Assembly: GCF_014654205.1 (NCBI RefSeq)
Contig: NZ_BNAW01000012.1
Location: 1 to 64,000 of the forward strand
DNA length: 64,000 nt
Reading direction: 5' to 3'
Source of the DNA: Amycolatopsis bullii
GTDB taxonomy: Bacteria; Actinomycetota; Actinomycetes; Mycobacteriales; Pseudonocardiaceae
Below the pieces are notes generated by a model that worked only from the letters and a program-made list of their open reading frames with translations, was not told the origin of the DNA and searched no databases. Both the position numbers and the translations under genes were made by a program. Each line of letters opens with the position of its first letter. Position 1 is the stretch's first letter. Positions 25,939-58,260 of this stretch are shown one piece after another.

Positions 25939-28122
25939 TCAGCGGCTCGCGCCGACCAGTTCCCGCCCGTCGTCGCCAGGGGCGTCGTCAAGCTGCTTCG
26001 TCAGCTTCTCGCCCTCCACGTCCACGTCCGGCAGGATCCGGTCCAGCCACTTCGGCAGCCACCACGCGCTGCGGCCGAGCAGGGACATCACCGCCGGCAC
26101 CAGCGTCATGCGGACCACGAACGCGTCCACCAGCACACCGAACGCCAGCGCGAAGCCGATCGACTGGATCAGCGACGACTCGGCCAGCACGAACCCGGCG
26201 AACACGCTGATCATGATCAGCGCCGCCGCGACCACCACGCGTGCTCCGTGCCGGAAGCCCGTGACCATCGCTTCCTGCGGCTCCGCGCCGTGGACGTGCT
26301 CTTCGCGCATCCGCGTCACCAGGAACACCTGGTAGTCCATCGCCAGCCCGAACAGCACGCCGATCAGCAGGATCGGCAGCATGCTCATGATCGGGCCGGT
26401 CGACTCGACGCCGAGCAGGTCCGTGAGCCAGCCCCACTGGAACACCGCGACCACCGCACCGAACGTCGCCGCGACCGAGCCGAGGAAGCCGATCGTCGCC
26501 TTCAGCGGCACCACCACCGAGCGGAACACCAGCATCAGCAGCACGAACGCCAGCCCGACGATCAGCGCCAGGTACGGCAGCATCGCGTCCGACAGCTTCT
26601 CGGAGACGTCGATGTTCGCCGCCGTCTGGCCGGTGACGGCCAGTTTCGCGTCCAGCGACCCCGATTCGGCGCGGATCGCGGCCACCAGGTCCTCGGTCTG
26701 CGTGCTGCTCGGGCCGCTCTTCGGGATCACCGTGAGCAACGCCGTGTCGCCGGCCTGGTTGAGCCGCGGCGGCGTGACGGCGGCGACGTCCGGCAGCTTC
26801 TGGATGCCGGCCGCGGCCTGGCCGAGCGCGGCCTGGCGGTTGGCGCTCCCGGAGACGTCGACGACGACCAGCAGCGGCCCGTTCGAGCCTTCGCCGAAGC
26901 TGCGGCTCGCGATCTCGTACGCCTTGCGCTGCGTCGACTCCGGCGCCGCGGTGCTGTCGTTGGGCAGGCCGAGCTGCATGCTCAGCGCGGGCAGCGCGAC
27001 GACGGCCATCCCGGCCAGCGCGACCAGCAGCACGGCGATCCGGTGGCGGCCGACGAACCGCGCCCAGCGTTCGCCGTGCGTCGGTTCGACCGGCTTGCGG
27101 CGCAGCCGGATGCGGCCGCCGGCGACCCGGGCCCCGGCGAAACCGAGGATCGCGGGCAGCAGCGTCAGGGCGATGAGCACGGCGATCGCGACGGTGGCGG
27201 CCGCCGCGACGCCCATCTGGCCGAGGAACGGGATGCCGATCACGGTGAGGCCGGCCAGCGCGATGATGACGGTGAGCCCGGCGAAGACCACGGCGGACCC
27301 GGCGGTGCCTGCGGCCCGTCCGGCGGCTTCTTCCGGGTCGCGGCCGATGCTCAGTTCGTGGCGATAGCGCGACACGATGAACAGCGCGTAGTCGATGCCG
27401 ACGGCCAGGCCGATCATCAGCGCCAGGACCGGCGTGTTCGAGTTCAGCTCGAGGAACCCGGACGCGAGGAAGATGCCCGCCATCCCGGTGCCGACGCCGA
27501 TCAGCGCGGTGAGCAGCGGGATCCCGGCCGCGAGCAGCGAACCGAACGTGATGATCAGCACGACGGCGGCGACCGCGACGCCCAGGCCTTCGGTGGCGCC
27601 GGTCGCGGGCACACCCTGCACGGCGTCCCCGCCGAACTCGACGGTGAACCCGGCGGCGCGGGCGGTGTTCGCGGTGTCCAGCAGTGCCTGACGGTCTTCG
27701 TCGGTCAGTTCGTACGCTTTCGCTCCGTAACTGACCTGGGCGAGGGCGACGCGTCGATCGGGTGAGACCGCCTGCGCCTGGAACGGGTCGACCACGGCCG
27801 CGACCTTCGGCGCCGTCTTCAACTGCCCGACGAGGGCTTCGACGGCCGCCTTGCCCTTGGCGTCGGCCACCGTGGTCCCGGCGGGGGCCTCGATGACCAC
27901 GCGCGCGGTCGCGCCACCGGCGTTGGCCTGCGGAAACTTCTCGGTGAGCTGGTCGGTCGCCCGCTGCGACTCGGTGCCGGGGATCGTCACCGAGTTCGAC
28001 AGCTGGCTGGAGAGCGTCAACGCGCCCAGGCCCAGTGCCACCAGGACCGCCGCCCAGACGGCCGCGACCAGCGCTCTGCGCCGGAAGGAAAACCGGCCGA
28101 GCCGGTACAGGAAGGTCGCCAC
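25939..28122 (-). CDS. MMPL-family membrane transporter
   Basis: A 727-residue RND/MMPL-type protein starting at GTG 28122. There is one N-terminal membrane segment (ALVAAVWAAVLVALGLGALT), a first extracytoplasmic domain, and five further segments including GIDYALFIVSRYRHELSIGR, the classic MMPL motif. A second copy of this arrangement contains FGLAMDYQVFLVTRMREEHV. There are about twelve segments in total. Proteins of this family export lipids, drugs or other amphiphiles using the proton gradient. It is divergent from a TetR regulator across a 205-base region that carries five palindromic sites, so it is almost certainly repressed by that TetR. Confidence 0.9.
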   Translation of the reverse strand: MATFLYRLGRFSFRRRALVAAVWAAVLVALGLGALTLSSQLSNSVTIPGTESQRATDQLTEKFPQANAGGATARVVIEAPAGTTVADAKGKAAVEALVGQLKTAPKVAAVVDPFQAQAVSPDRRVALAQVSYGAKAYELTDEDRQALLDTANTARAAGFTVEFGGDAVQGVPATGATEGLGVAVAAVVLIITFGSLLAAGIPLLTALIGVGTGMAGIFLASGFLELNSNTPVLALMIGLAVGIDYALFIVSRYRHELSIGRDPEEAAGRAAGTAGSAVVFAGLTVIIALAGLTVIGIPFLGQMGVAAAATVAIAVLIALTLLPAILGFAGARVAGGRIRLRRKPVEPTHGERWARFVGRHRIAVLLVALAGMAVVALPALSMQLGLPNDSTAAPESTQRKAYEIASRSFGEGSNGPLLVVVDVSGSANRQAALGQAAAGIQKLPDVAAVTPPRLNQAGDTALLTVIPKSGPSSTQTEDLVAAIRAESGSLDAKLAVTGQTAANIDVSEKLSDAMLPYLALIVGLAFVLLMLVFRSVVVPLKATIGFLGSVAATFGAVVAVFQWGWLTDLLGVESTGPIMSMLPILLIGVLFGLAMDYQVFLVTRMREEHVHGAEPQEAMVTGFRHGARVVVAAALIMISVFAGFVLAESSLIQSIGFALAFGVLVDAFVVRMTLVPAVMSLLGRSAWWLPKWLDRILPDVDVEGEKLTKQLDDAPGDDGRELVGASR

Positions 28123-28179
28123 GAGTCAGCTCCGTTTCGCCCGAACGGGGTCAGTTCACTCCATAGGGTCCTTTCCAAG

Positions 28180-28290
28180 CTAGCCGATCGGCAAGGACGA
28201 CTCCAAGCCGATCGGCAAGTATGTGACTTGCCGAACAGCAAGGTTTATTCCTTGCCGTTCGGCTAGTAAGGCGGTTTGCCGATCGACAGG
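28180..28290. promoter_or_regulatory. Array of five TetR-type operators
   Basis: Five 16-base copies of the palindrome CTTGCCGATCGGCAAG or its variants begin at 28180, 28204, 28227, 28251 and 28275. The spacing is 24, 23, 24 and 24 bases, about 2.3 helical turns. They read CTAGCCGATCGGCAAG, CAAGCCGATCGGCAAG, CTTGCCGAACAGCAAG, CTTGCCGTTCGGCTAG and TTTGCCGATCGACAGG. They cover the divergent promoters of the MMPL and TetR genes. Confidence 0.85.
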
Positions 28291-28298
28291 GCGTGACG

Positions 28299-28304
28299 TA
28301 GGCT
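28299..28304 (+). promoter_or_regulatory. -10 element of the TetR gene
   Basis: TAGGCT lies 24 bases before the tetR ATG, which has GAGGAGGAAG as ribosome site. The last two operators overlap the expected -35 region, consistent with autorepression. Confidence 0.5.
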
Positions 28305-28327
28305 CCGACGGCTGCTGAGGAGGAAGA

Positions 28328-28921
28328 ATGACCGCCGGCCCGGCCGAGGACACCCGGACCCGACTGCTGCAGACCGCGCTGCGCCTGTTCACCGAACACG
28401 GGGTCGAGGGCACGTCGCTGCAGATGATCGCCGACGCGCTGGGCATCACCAAGGCGGCTGTGTACTACCACTTCAAGACGAAGGCGGAGATCACCGAGGC
28501 TGTTGCCGAGCCCGGTGTCCGCGACCTGGACGAGCTCGTGCGCCGGGCCGCGGCGCAGAAGCGCCGGGGCGCGCAGGTGGACCTGCTGCTGGAGGGGTTC
28601 GTCGACCTGGTGATCCGCCACCGCGCGCTGGTGGCGCTGTTTTCGAGCGACCCGGGCATCGCCCGCGCGATCGAGAAGTCCGCCCACGGCGGTATGGAGG
28701 GCTTCGGCCGCGCGTTGCTGGGCATTCTGTCGGGCCCCGAACCGGACACGACGGCCCGCGTCAACGCCCTGGTGACGTTGACGGGCATCGCCATGGCGGG
28801 CGGCTCCCCGGACCTCGCCGGCCTGGGGGATGAAGAGTTGCGCGCGGAGCTCCTGGACGTGGGCCGCCGCCTCCTGGGCCGCCCCCGCCGCCGAGCCGCC
28901 ACCCCGCTCGCCACCCTCTGA
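28328..28921 (+). CDS. TetR-family repressor of the MMPL transporter
   Basis: A 197-residue protein. The N-terminal HTH (DTRTRLLQTALRLFTEHGVE ... IADALGITKAAVYYHFKTKA) is a standard TetR DNA-binding domain; the rest is a helical ligand-binding domain. It ends in an Arg-rich tail (GRPRRRAATPLATL). It is divergent from the MMPL exporter with the operator array between them, so it most likely senses the exported compound or a related ligand. GAGGAGG precedes the ATG. Confidence 0.88.
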   Translation: MTAGPAEDTRTRLLQTALRLFTEHGVEGTSLQMIADALGITKAAVYYHFKTKAEITEAVAEPGVRDLDELVRRAAAQKRRGAQVDLLLEGFVDLVIRHRALVALFSSDPGIARAIEKSAHGGMEGFGRALLGILSGPEPDTTARVNALVTLTGIAMAGGSPDLAGLGDEELRAELLDVGRRLLGRPRRRAATPLATL

Positions 28922-28978: not shown

Positions 28979-29512
28979 TCAGCTGGTGAAGGTCAAGTAC
29001 TCCGGCGGTACCGCCGAGGTCAGCCAGACTTTGTTGGCGCTTACCTGGAAGGCGTGACCTTCCGCGGCCATCGCGGCGGCGTCGACCCGGAGAATCACCG
29101 GCTTGCCGCGGCGGGCGCCGACGATTCTCGCCGTCTCCATCGTCGCCGACAGGTGGACCGCGTGGCGGTTCATCGGGCGCAGGCCCTCGCGGAAGATCGC
29201 GTCGAGGTACTTCGCGGCCGTGCCGTGGTACAGCACGTCCGGCGGCGTCGCGTCCGGCAGGCCCAAGTCGACCGCGACGCTGTGACTCTGGCTCGCGCGG
29301 ATGCGCGTGCCCGTTTCGTCGAAGGCGAAGCGGCGCTTGTTGTTCTTCTCGACCACCTCGTCCAACTCCGAGCGGGTGATCGCGAGCGCGCGCAGGAGCG
29401 CGTCGACCGGCGCCCAGCCACCGGGGGCGAGGGTGAGGCCGAGGGCGGCGGGGTCGTGGCGGAGGTGCCGGGACAGCCGCTTCGAGATGCGGATGATTTC
29501 CTTGTCGTTCAT
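28979..29512 (-). CDS. kptA: RNA 2'-phosphotransferase (Tpt1/KptA)
   Basis: A 177-residue protein beginning with the N-terminal winged domain motif SKRLSRHLRHDP. The catalytic domain shows VLYHGTAAKYLDAIFREGL and NRHAVHLSATMETA, the His-Gly-Thr and Arg-His residues that bind NAD and the RNA 2'-phosphate. The enzyme transfers an internal RNA 2'-phosphate to NAD, producing ADP-ribose cyclic phosphate. It lies 34 bases downstream of soxR on the same strand and may be co-transcribed. Its physiological role in bacteria lacking tRNA splicing is not settled. Confidence 0.9.
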   Translation of the reverse strand: MNDKEIIRISKRLSRHLRHDPAALGLTLAPGGWAPVDALLRALAITRSELDEVVEKNNKRRFAFDETGTRIRASQSHSVAVDLGLPDATPPDVLYHGTAAKYLDAIFREGLRPMNRHAVHLSATMETARIVGARRGKPVILRVDAAAMAAEGHAFQVSANKVWLTSAVPPEYLTFTS

Positions 29513-30045: not shown

Positions 30046-30060
30046 TTGCATCGTCGGGTC

Positions 30061-30750
30061 ATGACCACTGTGACCGCACCGGGCCACGCCGATCTGCCCC
30101 GGCTGATTTCGCTGATGACCGGCGACGAAAAGCACAGCGCCGCCGCGGAGTCCACATTGGACGTCTTGTGGGTGCTCTACGACCGCGTGCTCGACGTCAC
30201 GCCCGAGAACTTCCGTGATCCCGGCCGTGACCGGTTCCTGCTGTCCAAAGGGCACGGGCCGATGGCGTACTACGCCGTGCTCACCGCGAAAGGCTTCATC
30301 GACGAGGCGGAACTGGCGACGTGGTCCGACGCGGTGTCGCGGCTGGGCTACCACCCCGACCGGCGCCGCATCCCCGGCGTCGAAATCTCCAGCGGCTCCC
30401 TCGGCCACGGCCTGCCGATCGCGTTCGGCACCGCGCTCGGCCTGCGCGCCCGCGGCCTGACCGCGAAGGTCGTGACGCTGGTCGGCGACGCCGAGCTGGA
30501 CGAAGGCTCGAACCACGAGGCGATCGTCGTCGCGGCGCGCGAAGGCCTCGAAAACCTGACCACCGTGGTGATCGACAACCAGTCGTCGACGCGCGGCTGG
30601 CCGGGCGGCATCGCGCGCCGCTTCGCCGTCGAAGGCTGGGAGACGCGCACGGTGTCCGGCCGCGACCACGCCGCGTTATACGACGCCTTCACCGCCGCCC
30701 ACCCCGGCCGGCCGCTGGCCGTGGTCGCCGTCGTCGAACCGAAAGGCTGA
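30061..30750 (+). CDS. Transketolase-like enzyme, N-terminal (ThDP diphosphate-binding) subunit
   Basis: A 229-residue protein with KGHGPMAYYAVLTAKGF and GSLGHGLPIAFGTALGLRAR, the usual active-site helices of split transketolases. The ThDP-magnesium motif reads VGDAELDEGSNHEA, with Ala replacing Gly of the canonical GDGE. It is shorter than usual split-transketolase N subunits (~270). Together with the next gene it forms a two-subunit enzyme that transfers two-carbon units between sugars. The ATG at 30061 is chosen; a TTG 15 bases upstream is possible. It is divergent from soxR and may be under redox control. Confidence 0.85.
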   Translation: MTTVTAPGHADLPRLISLMTGDEKHSAAAESTLDVLWVLYDRVLDVTPENFRDPGRDRFLLSKGHGPMAYYAVLTAKGFIDEAELATWSDAVSRLGYHPDRRRIPGVEISSGSLGHGLPIAFGTALGLRARGLTAKVVTLVGDAELDEGSNHEAIVVAAREGLENLTTVVIDNQSSTRGWPGGIARRFAVEGWETRTVSGRDHAALYDAFTAAHPGRPLAVVAVVEPKG

Positions 30751-30752
30751 AC

Positions 30753-31646
30753 ATGCTGCCGATGCGGGAAACCTTCCTCGCCACCACCGAACGGATCGTC
30801 GACGCCGACCCGGACGTCGCGGTGGTCCTCGCCGACATCTCGGCCGCGCAGCTCGCCGGCGCCGCGCGGCGGCACCCGGACCGGGTGATCAACGTCGGGA
30901 TCCGCGAGCAGCTGCTGGTCAGCACGGGCGCCGGGCTGGCGCTGGCCGGACTGCGGCCGATCGTGCACACGTTCCCGCCATTCCTGGTCGAGCGCGCCTT
31001 CGAGCAGATCAAGCTGGATTTTTCGCACCAGGAGGTGGGCGGCGTCCTGGTGTCGTGGGGAGCGTCGTACGACATGCCGACGGCGGGCCGCACGCACCAG
31101 TCCCCGGGCGACGTCGCGCTGATCGATTCCCTGCCGGGCTGGACGGTCCACGTGCCGGGCCACCCGGCCGAGGCCGAACGCCTGCTGCTGGAGTCGATCC
31201 CCGGAGACGGCCGCGTCTACCTGCGGCTTTCGGCGCAGGAGAACGCTTCCCCGCACCTGGGGGTGGGGTTCACGCGGCTGCGGCAGGGAGCGCGCGGCGT
31301 GGTGGTGGCGGTGGGCCCGGTCCTGGACCGCGTCCTGCGCGCAACGGCGGGCCTGGACGTGACGGTGCTGTACGCCTCGACGATCCGCCCATTCGACGGC
31401 GCCGGCTTGCGGTCGGCGGCGCTGGCGGCCGCGGCCGACGTGGTGCTGGTGGAGCCGTACCTGGCGGGGACGTCGGCTCACTGGGTGGCGGAGGCGCTTT
31501 CCGGCGTGCCGCACCGGTTGCGGTCGCTGGGCGTGCGGCGGGACGCGGAGATCCGGACGTACGGGGGGATCGGGGATCACGATCTGGCGCACGGGCTGGA
31601 CGCCGGGTCGCTGGGGCTGTCGATCAGGGAGTTTTTGGGGGAGTAG
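30753..31646 (+). CDS. Transketolase-like enzyme, C-terminal (pyrimidine-binding) subunit
   Basis: A 297-residue protein carrying the pyrimidine-binding domain (VINVGIREQLLVSTGAGLAL with the catalytic Glu, and IVHTFPPFLVERAFEQIKLD) and the C-terminal transketolase domain (VVVAVGPVLDRVLRAT ... DVVLVEPY). It starts two bases after the first subunit stop. Its 3' end overlaps the convergent membrane gene by 23 bases. The pair could belong to a secondary pathway rather than the central pentose phosphate route, given its SoxR neighbour and short N subunit. Housekeeping transketolase is normally a single long chain. Confidence 0.85.
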   Translation: MLPMRETFLATTERIVDADPDVAVVLADISAAQLAGAARRHPDRVINVGIREQLLVSTGAGLALAGLRPIVHTFPPFLVERAFEQIKLDFSHQEVGGVLVSWGASYDMPTAGRTHQSPGDVALIDSLPGWTVHVPGHPAEAERLLLESIPGDGRVYLRLSAQENASPHLGVGFTRLRQGARGVVVAVGPVLDRVLRATAGLDVTVLYASTIRPFDGAGLRSAALAAAADVVLVEPYLAGTSAHWVAEALSGVPHRLRSLGVRRDAEIRTYGGIGDHDLAHGLDAGSLGLSIREFLGE

Positions 31647-57472: not shown

Positions 57473-58260
57473 GCGGGCTCGACGACCTCTTCGCGACGAC
57501 CCGCGCGGAGGGTCGCGGCGCGCTGATCGGCTACCTGCCGGCCGGGTTCCCCACGGTCGAGGGATCGAAGGACCTGATCGCGGCCTGCGTGGACGGCGGC
57601 GCGGACCTGATCGAGGTCGGCGTCCCGTATTCGGACCCGGTGATGGACGGCCCGACCATCCAGGCGGCCTCGGTGACGGCGCTGGACAACGGCTTCCGCC
57701 TCAAGCACCTGTTCGAGGTGGTCGAGTCGGTGTCGGCGCGGGGTGGCCGCGCGGTCGTGATGACGTACTGGAACCCGGTCAACCGCTACGGCGTCGACCG
57801 CTTCGCCCGCGACCTGGCGTCGGCGGGCGGGCTCGGCCTGATCACGCCGGACCTGATCCCGGACGAAGCCGGGGCGTGGCTTTCCGCGTCGGAGACCCAC
57901 GGCCTCGACCGGATCTTCCTGGTGGCCCCGTCGTCCTCGGAGGAGCGGCTGGCATTGACGGCGGCCGCGTCGTCGGGGTTCATCTACGCGACCGCGGTGA
58001 TGGGCGTGACGGGCGCGCGGGACCAGGTCGGCGCGGGGGCGGAGACGCTGGTCCGCCGCACCCGGGCGCACACGGACCTGCCGATCGGCGTGGGTCTGGG
58101 TGTCCGCTCGGGCGACCAGGCGGCCGAGGTGGCGTCCTTCGCGGACGCGGTGATCGTCGGATCGGCGCTGGTTACAGCGGCGGCGGAGGGCGCTGACGGC
58201 GTTCGCCGCCTGTCGGCGGAGCTGGCTGAAGGTGTGCGCCGGGCGGTCGCGACGGCCTAA
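57469..58260 (+). CDS. trpA: Tryptophan synthase alpha subunit
   Basis: A 263-residue TIM-barrel. Catalytic Glu in [11 protein letters not shown] and Asp in [10 protein letters not shown] are present, with the [12 protein letters not shown] loop closing over the active site. It cleaves indole glycerol phosphate and passes indole to TrpB. The ATG overlaps the trpB stop. A terminator hairpin follows at once. Confidence 0.95.

Follow-up and report, generated by a model that had tools for sequence, protein, structure and literature searches.

Multi-dimer binding to DNA already has precedents in the TetR family, namely EthR, QacR, CgmR and RolR (PMC9210681). In the excerpts of the sources used here, EthR of Mycobacterium tuberculosis is said to form a homo-octamer that binds cooperatively to a 55-bp operator containing direct as well as inverted repeats, whereas QacR, CgmR and RolR are described as pairs of dimers on one operator of 28-32 bp with a required spacing (PMC9210681). 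DarR, in the excerpt, places a second dimer on a pseudo-palindromic site overlapping the first (PMC10636190). For MAB_4384 of Mycobacterium abscessus, the text excerpted proposes that two dimers occupy a palindromic operator of 27 bp located between tetR and mmpS5/mmpL5 (PMC5895659). TetR itself is described with two operators between tetA and tetR, 11 bp apart (PMC9210681).

In this study, we analysed a 64-kb stretch of DNA (the window) in which the interval separating a TetR gene from a divergently oriented MMPL exporter gene holds five 16-bp palindromes. The likeness to EthR, as the excerpt presents it, is a TetR-family repressor with one operator and several dimers reported to be cooperative (PMC9210681); the difference is that here 16-bp palindromes stand apart from one another, recur every 23-24 bp and together span about 110 bp. 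QacR, CgmR and RolR are described with two dimers only, on operators of about 28-32 bp, and here there are up to five non-overlapping sites, 23-24 bp apart. MAB_4384 shares a TetR gene divergent from an MMPL-type efflux operon with the operator between them, but the excerpt describes a single 27-bp operator and no array (PMC5895659). In the tetA/tetR system, exporter and repressor are likewise divergent with operators over both promoters; these are two operators with 11 bp between them, compared with up to five here. The excerpted descriptions of EthR, QacR, CgmR, RolR, MAB_4384 and DarR contain no series of distinct operators repeated at a constant interval (PMC9210681, PMC5895659, PMC10636190). 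Six 14-base operator cores were not found in the open-licence literature searched, and among the literature matches listed for TetR systems that are cooperative or have many sites, and for TetR with MMPL in Amycolatopsis, none was recognisable as the present system. The literature search gave no match for 7EQE.

The palindromes and their neighbourhood

Site 1 (28180..28195, CTAGCCGATCGGCAAG) differs from CTTGCCGATCGGCAAG at one position, and site 2 (28204..28219, CAAGCCGATCGGCAAG), site 3 (28227..28242, CTTGCCGAACAGCAAG) and site 4 (28251..28266, CTTGCCGTTCGGCTAG) differ at two positions each. Site 5 (28275..28290, TTTGCCGATCGACAGG) is the weakest, with three mismatches. The list of motif matches in the window bears out the preliminary description of five variant sites with neighbouring steps of 24, 23, 24 and 24. 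That description also called the sites phased. The even spacing stands, but not a location on the same face of the helix: DNA makes one turn per 10.5 bp, and neighbouring sites must lie off the same face because 23-24 bp corresponds to 2.2-2.3 helical turns. Same-face helical phasing was therefore rejected, as the step is no whole number of turns.

When CTTGCCGATCGGCAAG was sought with up to three mismatches, the window held six matches against 0.43 expected, and none of 100 shuffles reached six; the sixth match is an isolated one at 58077. The same search over the whole genome (9.38 Mb) gave 281 matches, compared with 244 for the reversed control. Genome-wide enrichment is thus little or none, and what stands out is the clustering. 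The same comparison led us to reject a regulon of scattered sites.

The TetR-family regulator gene (28328..28921, plus strand) encodes 197 aa. The protein carries an N-terminal helix-turn-helix domain (TetR_N, PF00440, 58.1 bits against a cut-off of 24), and its predicted fold is the all-helical TetR fold along the whole chain. The majority of the helix-turn-helix residues are invariant in a 17-row alignment, whose rows exclude Catellatospora and myxobacteria; the loci of these organisms were found through the same helix-turn-helix peptides. The MMPL-family exporter gene (25939..28122, minus strand) has a GTG start and encodes 727 aa. It matches PF03176 in two stretches (336.5 bits) and falls below the curated cut-off of the ActII-type MMPL subfamily TIGR00833 (176.2 vs 874.7 bits). 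This pair is flanked on one side by genes for histidinol dehydrogenase and IGPD and on the other by Tpt1/KptA and MerR genes. The RNA 2'-phosphotransferase (Tpt1/KptA) gene at 28979-29512 is directly downstream of tetR on the opposite strand. Farther along, a transketolase-like enzyme (30046-31646) is split over two reading frames, with the thiamine-binding domain at 30046-30750 and the pyrimidine-binding domain in the next open reading frame. A paralogous TetR of the same genome (L049, contig C1 near 181537) and that of L048 have CTTAACGGTAGGTAAG and CTTACCTATCGTTAAG upstream, 30 bp apart.

From the conserved palindromes adjoining its gene, we infer that the TetR protein is the binder of the array. 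A terminator scan returned three terminator-like elements against 0.4 expected, with site 3 (28227-28242) among them and a tail that is T-rich but broken. Site 3 was rejected as a terminator, since the stem is the TetR palindrome itself, and the call is probably a by-product of the palindrome. An RNA element was also sought, and no Rfam match at gathering scores was obtained within 27900-28500.

An orthologous TetR is encoded in 35 of the 36 genomes of the genus, the window's own counted; the exception (G004) gave weaker matches only, the best with an E value of 3e-15. Sites 1-3 are present in all 35 upstream regions of the genus. In a sample of 150 family genomes, an ortholog (E 3e-61 or better) was found in 27 genomes of other genera, which makes it a minority gene outside the genus, and 16 of 46 genera had any match at E 1e-20. 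The 35 genus regions and 27 other-genus regions gave 62 orthologs (L052 was dropped as the same place as L037). Sites 1 and 2 occur in 62/62 of them, site 3 in 52/62, site 4 in 31/62 and site 5 in 15/62, where site 4 was counted only if site 3 exists and site 5 only if site 4 exists. The step from site 1 to site 2, sought at 23 and 24 bp only, is 23 in 41 and 24 in 21. Sites 3 to 5 were searched at 16 to 34-36 bp from the preceding site, so that other steps could be found. The step from 2 to 3 is 23 in 51 orthologs and 24 in one (ten lack site 3), that from 3 to 4 is 23 in 26 and 24 in five, and that from 4 to 5 is 24 in 13 and 23 in two. These orthologs share descent. Lack of conservation in relatives had been named as a finding that would refute the suggested cooperative or filament-like TetR binding; instead, sites 1 and 2 are universal among the 62 orthologs and the spacing is locked, as contact between neighbours would predict.

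Candidate promoters and a Crp/GlxR-like box

A candidate -10 element of the exporter, TAGCTT (28177..28182, minus strand), has three of its six letters inside site 1, and a candidate -35 element, TTGGAG (28201..28206, minus strand), lies 18 bp away. TAGNNT is found in 62/62 orthologs and the TTG start in 54/62, the latter three letters being inside site 2; in the orthologs, TAGNNT at the edge of site 1 and the TTG hexamer at the edge of site 2 are 17 or 18 bp apart. We take these to resemble actinobacterial -10 and -35 elements. Three letters of each element belong to palindromes, so their conservation is only partly independent evidence. For tetR, a -35 element, TTGCCG (28276..28281, plus strand), inside site 5, and a -10 element, TAGGCT (28299..28304, plus strand), with a spacer of 17, were read from the sequence. 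A strict sigma-70 scan gave no promoter on either strand; the evidence for the promoters is consequently their conservation, and half of the conserved letters fall within the sites. With these assignments, site 1 would overlap the exporter -10 and spacer, the left arm of site 2 would overlap the -35, and site 5 would cover the tetR -35. The earlier view that the sites extend over both promoters therefore holds as far as promoters can be inferred from sequence.

A Crp/GlxR-like box, TGTGA-N6-GAACA (28222..28237), begins 2 bp past site 2 and overlaps site 3. TGTGA occurs in 61/62 orthologs, and RMAC follows the N6 in 61/61. The right half reads GCACG in 36, GAACA in 18, AAACA in four, ACACG in two and GCACC in one of these 61. 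The linker between sites 2 and 3 is conserved, unlike those between sites 1 and 2 and between sites 3 and 4. The box is kept in 10/10 orthologs that lack site 3, which belong to three genus codes (g26, g46, g66). The centre of site 3 is CA in 37 and AA in 15 of the 52 orthologs having the site, whereas sites 1 and 2 have AT at the centre in 105 of 124 cases and CA in none. The distinct centre and the persistence of the box where site 3 is absent argue that at site 3 a TetR palindrome overlies another element. This separately conserved box under site 3 is new here and does not figure in the preliminary description.

About 58-61 bp separate the box centre from the predicted exporter start downstream, a distance often seen in class I activation. 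A Crp-type protein (L172:1060-1734, segment SRETVNKALADF), the best of 27 matches to PF13545, is encoded in the genome. The GlxR motif is given as GTG(N)8CAC in the excerpted source on actinobacterial sites (PMC10033298). GTG-N8-CAC is matched in 39/61 orthologous boxes, and the remaining 22, the window's copy among them, have AAC in the right half; the overlap with a TetR site is a further difference from the GlxR sites as excerpted. There is about an even chance that Crp would be the binder of the box. We give slightly less than an even chance to the alternative that TGTGA-N6-RMAC is an extra TetR contact or the site of another factor and no Crp/GlxR site. The window's GTG-N8-AAC, one letter off the reported motif, is in line with this alternative, as are Hamadaea (L163), which has TGTGA in the linker between sites 2 and 3 without the CAC half, and several myxobacterial loci with GTG-like letters after a site. 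The exact GTG-N8-CAC matches in most orthologs, the persistence of the box in all orthologs without site 3 and the presence of a Crp-type protein speak against it. In loci from outside the family, conservation of the box is not clear. If Crp does bind, the location of site 3 on this separately conserved box means that repressor and activator may compete there, and the embedded box would link the exporter's repressor to a global regulator.

Spacing of the sites and possible contact between dimers

We scanned 131 distinct loci for sites matching at least 12 of 14 positions and for neighbouring pairs within 60 bp; L092-L120 were included, and we left out L001-L006 as well as loci that duplicated another in their upstream or TetR sequence. 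Of 265 pairs, 254 are at 23 bp (n=197) or 24 bp (n=57). The other 11 are at 12 bp (n=4), 33 (n=2), 34 (n=1), 45 (n=2), 46 (n=1) and 49 (n=1), and the two 45-bp ones are loci missing site 3. As a control, we searched the remaining 435,665 bases of these loci, where 105 sites occur singly and none in pairs.

The run count, the tree and the linker analysis covered loci with TetR at least 43% identical to that of the window and more than 120 aligned residues. At the threshold of 12 of 14, the longest run with steps of 23 or 24 bp in the 110 loci has five sites in 17, four in 34, three in 31, two in 20 and one in two, with none in six. The window does have five sites as first described; the number is not a fixed one, since the runs of its relatives vary from five down to none.

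The linkers differ greatly between gaps. At gap 1, 86 of 104 are distinct with a mean pairwise identity of 0.33, and at gap 3, 41 of 55 are distinct with a mean identity of 0.36. Gap 4 (18/27 distinct, mean identity 0.51) and gap 2 (17/84 distinct, 0.72) are more conserved. In gaps 1 and 3 the letters are thus nearly random, while the length has switched between 7 and 8 bp repeatedly. A tree of the 110 TetRs requires at least 11 changes between 23 and 24 at the first step and at least five at the step from 3 to 4. The tree is a quick one in which 48 of 107 inner branches are weak; the well supported branches alone force six changes of the 24-bp label at the first step. Since the runs behind the tree labels admit no steps but 23 and 24, it is the 131-locus scan that shows other lengths to be rare.

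The retention of the 23-24 bp spacing across many genera and in some distant myxobacteria suggests that the repressors lie side by side on the DNA. We consider it fairly probable that the array would be the operator of the adjacent TetR, with neighbouring dimers touching, binding cooperatively and covering both promoters and the activator box. One TetR dimer would bind each 16-bp palindrome, and dimers 23-24 bp apart would touch through or near their DNA-binding domains to form a cooperative row of beads over about 110 bp. Occupation of sites 1 and 2 would cover the exporter -10, spacer and -35 and repress the exporter. At site 3, a dimer would block the Crp/GlxR-like box, which precedes the predicted exporter start by about 60 bp, and shut the activator out, and sites 4 and 5 would extend the row to the tetR promoter, leading to autorepression. 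A ligand, probably an exporter substrate, would release the row steeply and turn both genes on. At 10.5 bp per turn, each dimer is turned by about 69 degrees at 23 bp and about 103 degrees at 24 bp, and a contact would have to tolerate this range, most easily near the DNA-binding heads.

It could instead be that each dimer acts alone by occluding a promoter, with the spacing set by promoter geometry (-35/-10) and by the densest packing free of clashes, which we regard as unlikely. The step from site 1 to site 2 equals the inferred promoter spacer of 17 or 18 plus 6 and also sets that spacer, so this gap alone is no proof of contact; site 5 carries the inferred tetR -35 as well. However, the steps from 3 to 4 and from 4 to 5 are locked although the exporter promoter does not reach that far. 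Between the last site and the start of the aligned TetR, the distance takes 42 values from 29 to 238 bp (the start being extrapolated where the alignment begins later), and the register therefore follows the array and not the tetR gene. In four Catellatospora loci (L161, L167, L169 and L171; TetR 43-44% identical), five sites follow at 23, 23, 23 and 23 bp. About 23 bp is what a TetR dimer covers. Sterics would thus set a lower limit of the step; clash avoidance sets no upper limit, and the existence of one speaks for neighbouring dimers being in contact. That larger steps are rare calls for attraction, or for an equal pressure for dense cover, and neighbour contact is therefore favoured.

A functionless relic of a tandem duplicated 23-bp unit would account for the resemblance of neighbouring sites, and descent alone preserves many spacings, but we judge it very improbable, as the linkers at gaps 1 and 3 have diverged and moved repeatedly between 7 and 8 bp with other lengths rare, and sites 4 and 5 are absent from many of the 62 regions while the remaining ones retain palindrome and step.

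If touching dimers do form such a row, this would be a TetR subgroup whose operator length is readable from sequence alone, and a dimer-dimer contact held by evolution to within one base pair. The natural length variants (2, 3, 4 and 5 sites) would make cooperative multi-dimer repression in the TetR family testable, and the system would offer a ready-made steep switch for actinomycete genetics.

Distant relatives and other spacings

Among the best 80 of at least 580 related TetRs, the actinobacterial names include Amycolatopsis, Prauserella, Saccharomonospora, Actinophytocola, Haloechinothrix, Catellatospora, Hamadaea, Catelliglobosispora, Frankia, Actinocorallia and Thermomonospora, and the same 80 contain myxobacterial proteins, 51-55% identical, from Polyangium, Nannocystis and Sorangium. 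Hamadaea (L163) has steps of 23, 23 and 24, and Frankia and Catelliglobosispora (L156, L162) have steps of 23 and 23. All eight Polyangium and Nannocystis loci hold a site pair at 23 bp; Sorangium (L153) shows one at the looser threshold of 11 of 14 only. Eight of the 110 relatives lack a pair at the threshold of 12 of 14 (L042, L153, L159, L160, L164, L166, L168 and L170). The 23-bp pair appears under looser criteria in L159 and L153, and no array was found in L160, L164, L166, L168 and L170.

The divergent neighbour was checked in 12 loci. It is an MMPL gene in L156, L161, L162, L163 and L047 and a P450 gene in L136, L147, L153 and L043, with neighbours of other kinds in L159 and L165. L136 and L147 are the two of the eight Polyangium and Nannocystis loci that were checked, both with P450. 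For L136, L147 and L153 (Polyangium, Nannocystis and Sorangium), where the TetR is 51-55% identical, a P450 gene adjoins and the operator core is the same, transfer between phyla with a change of target gene is likely. Tentatively, and with some doubt, we put forward a more general proposal: an open-ended row of touching dimers with a 23-bp period, its length set by the number of sites, would bury two promoters and an embedded Crp site; ligand and cAMP status would be integrated by direct competition; and the spacing rule would have travelled with the protein to myxobacteria and P450 targets.

A motif-blind scan for palindrome pairs was made on 70 loci below 56% identity, which are 66 places (L043/L185, L046/L190, L049/L203 and L050/L194 were counted twice). 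In 21 loci a pair scored above all 40 shuffles: 14 pairs at 23 bp, two at 24, two at 19 (both from a single place) and single pairs at 22, 25 and 35. Pairs at other distances among distant TetRs indicate that other TetRs use other spacings and that 23-24 bp is a trait of the subfamily of the window's TetR. L187 is an exception, having the same motif with a TetR of 37% identity and a pair at 25 bp. L050 and L194 are one place, where the region upstream of a distant TetR carries the palindrome CTGACCGATCGGTCAG in two identical copies 19 bp apart. The distant TetRs of L080, L082, L083 and L088 (33-38% identical) have sites facing around a TGACTCA-like linker, and L083 and L088 form a 23-bp pair at 12 of 14 and L080 at 11.
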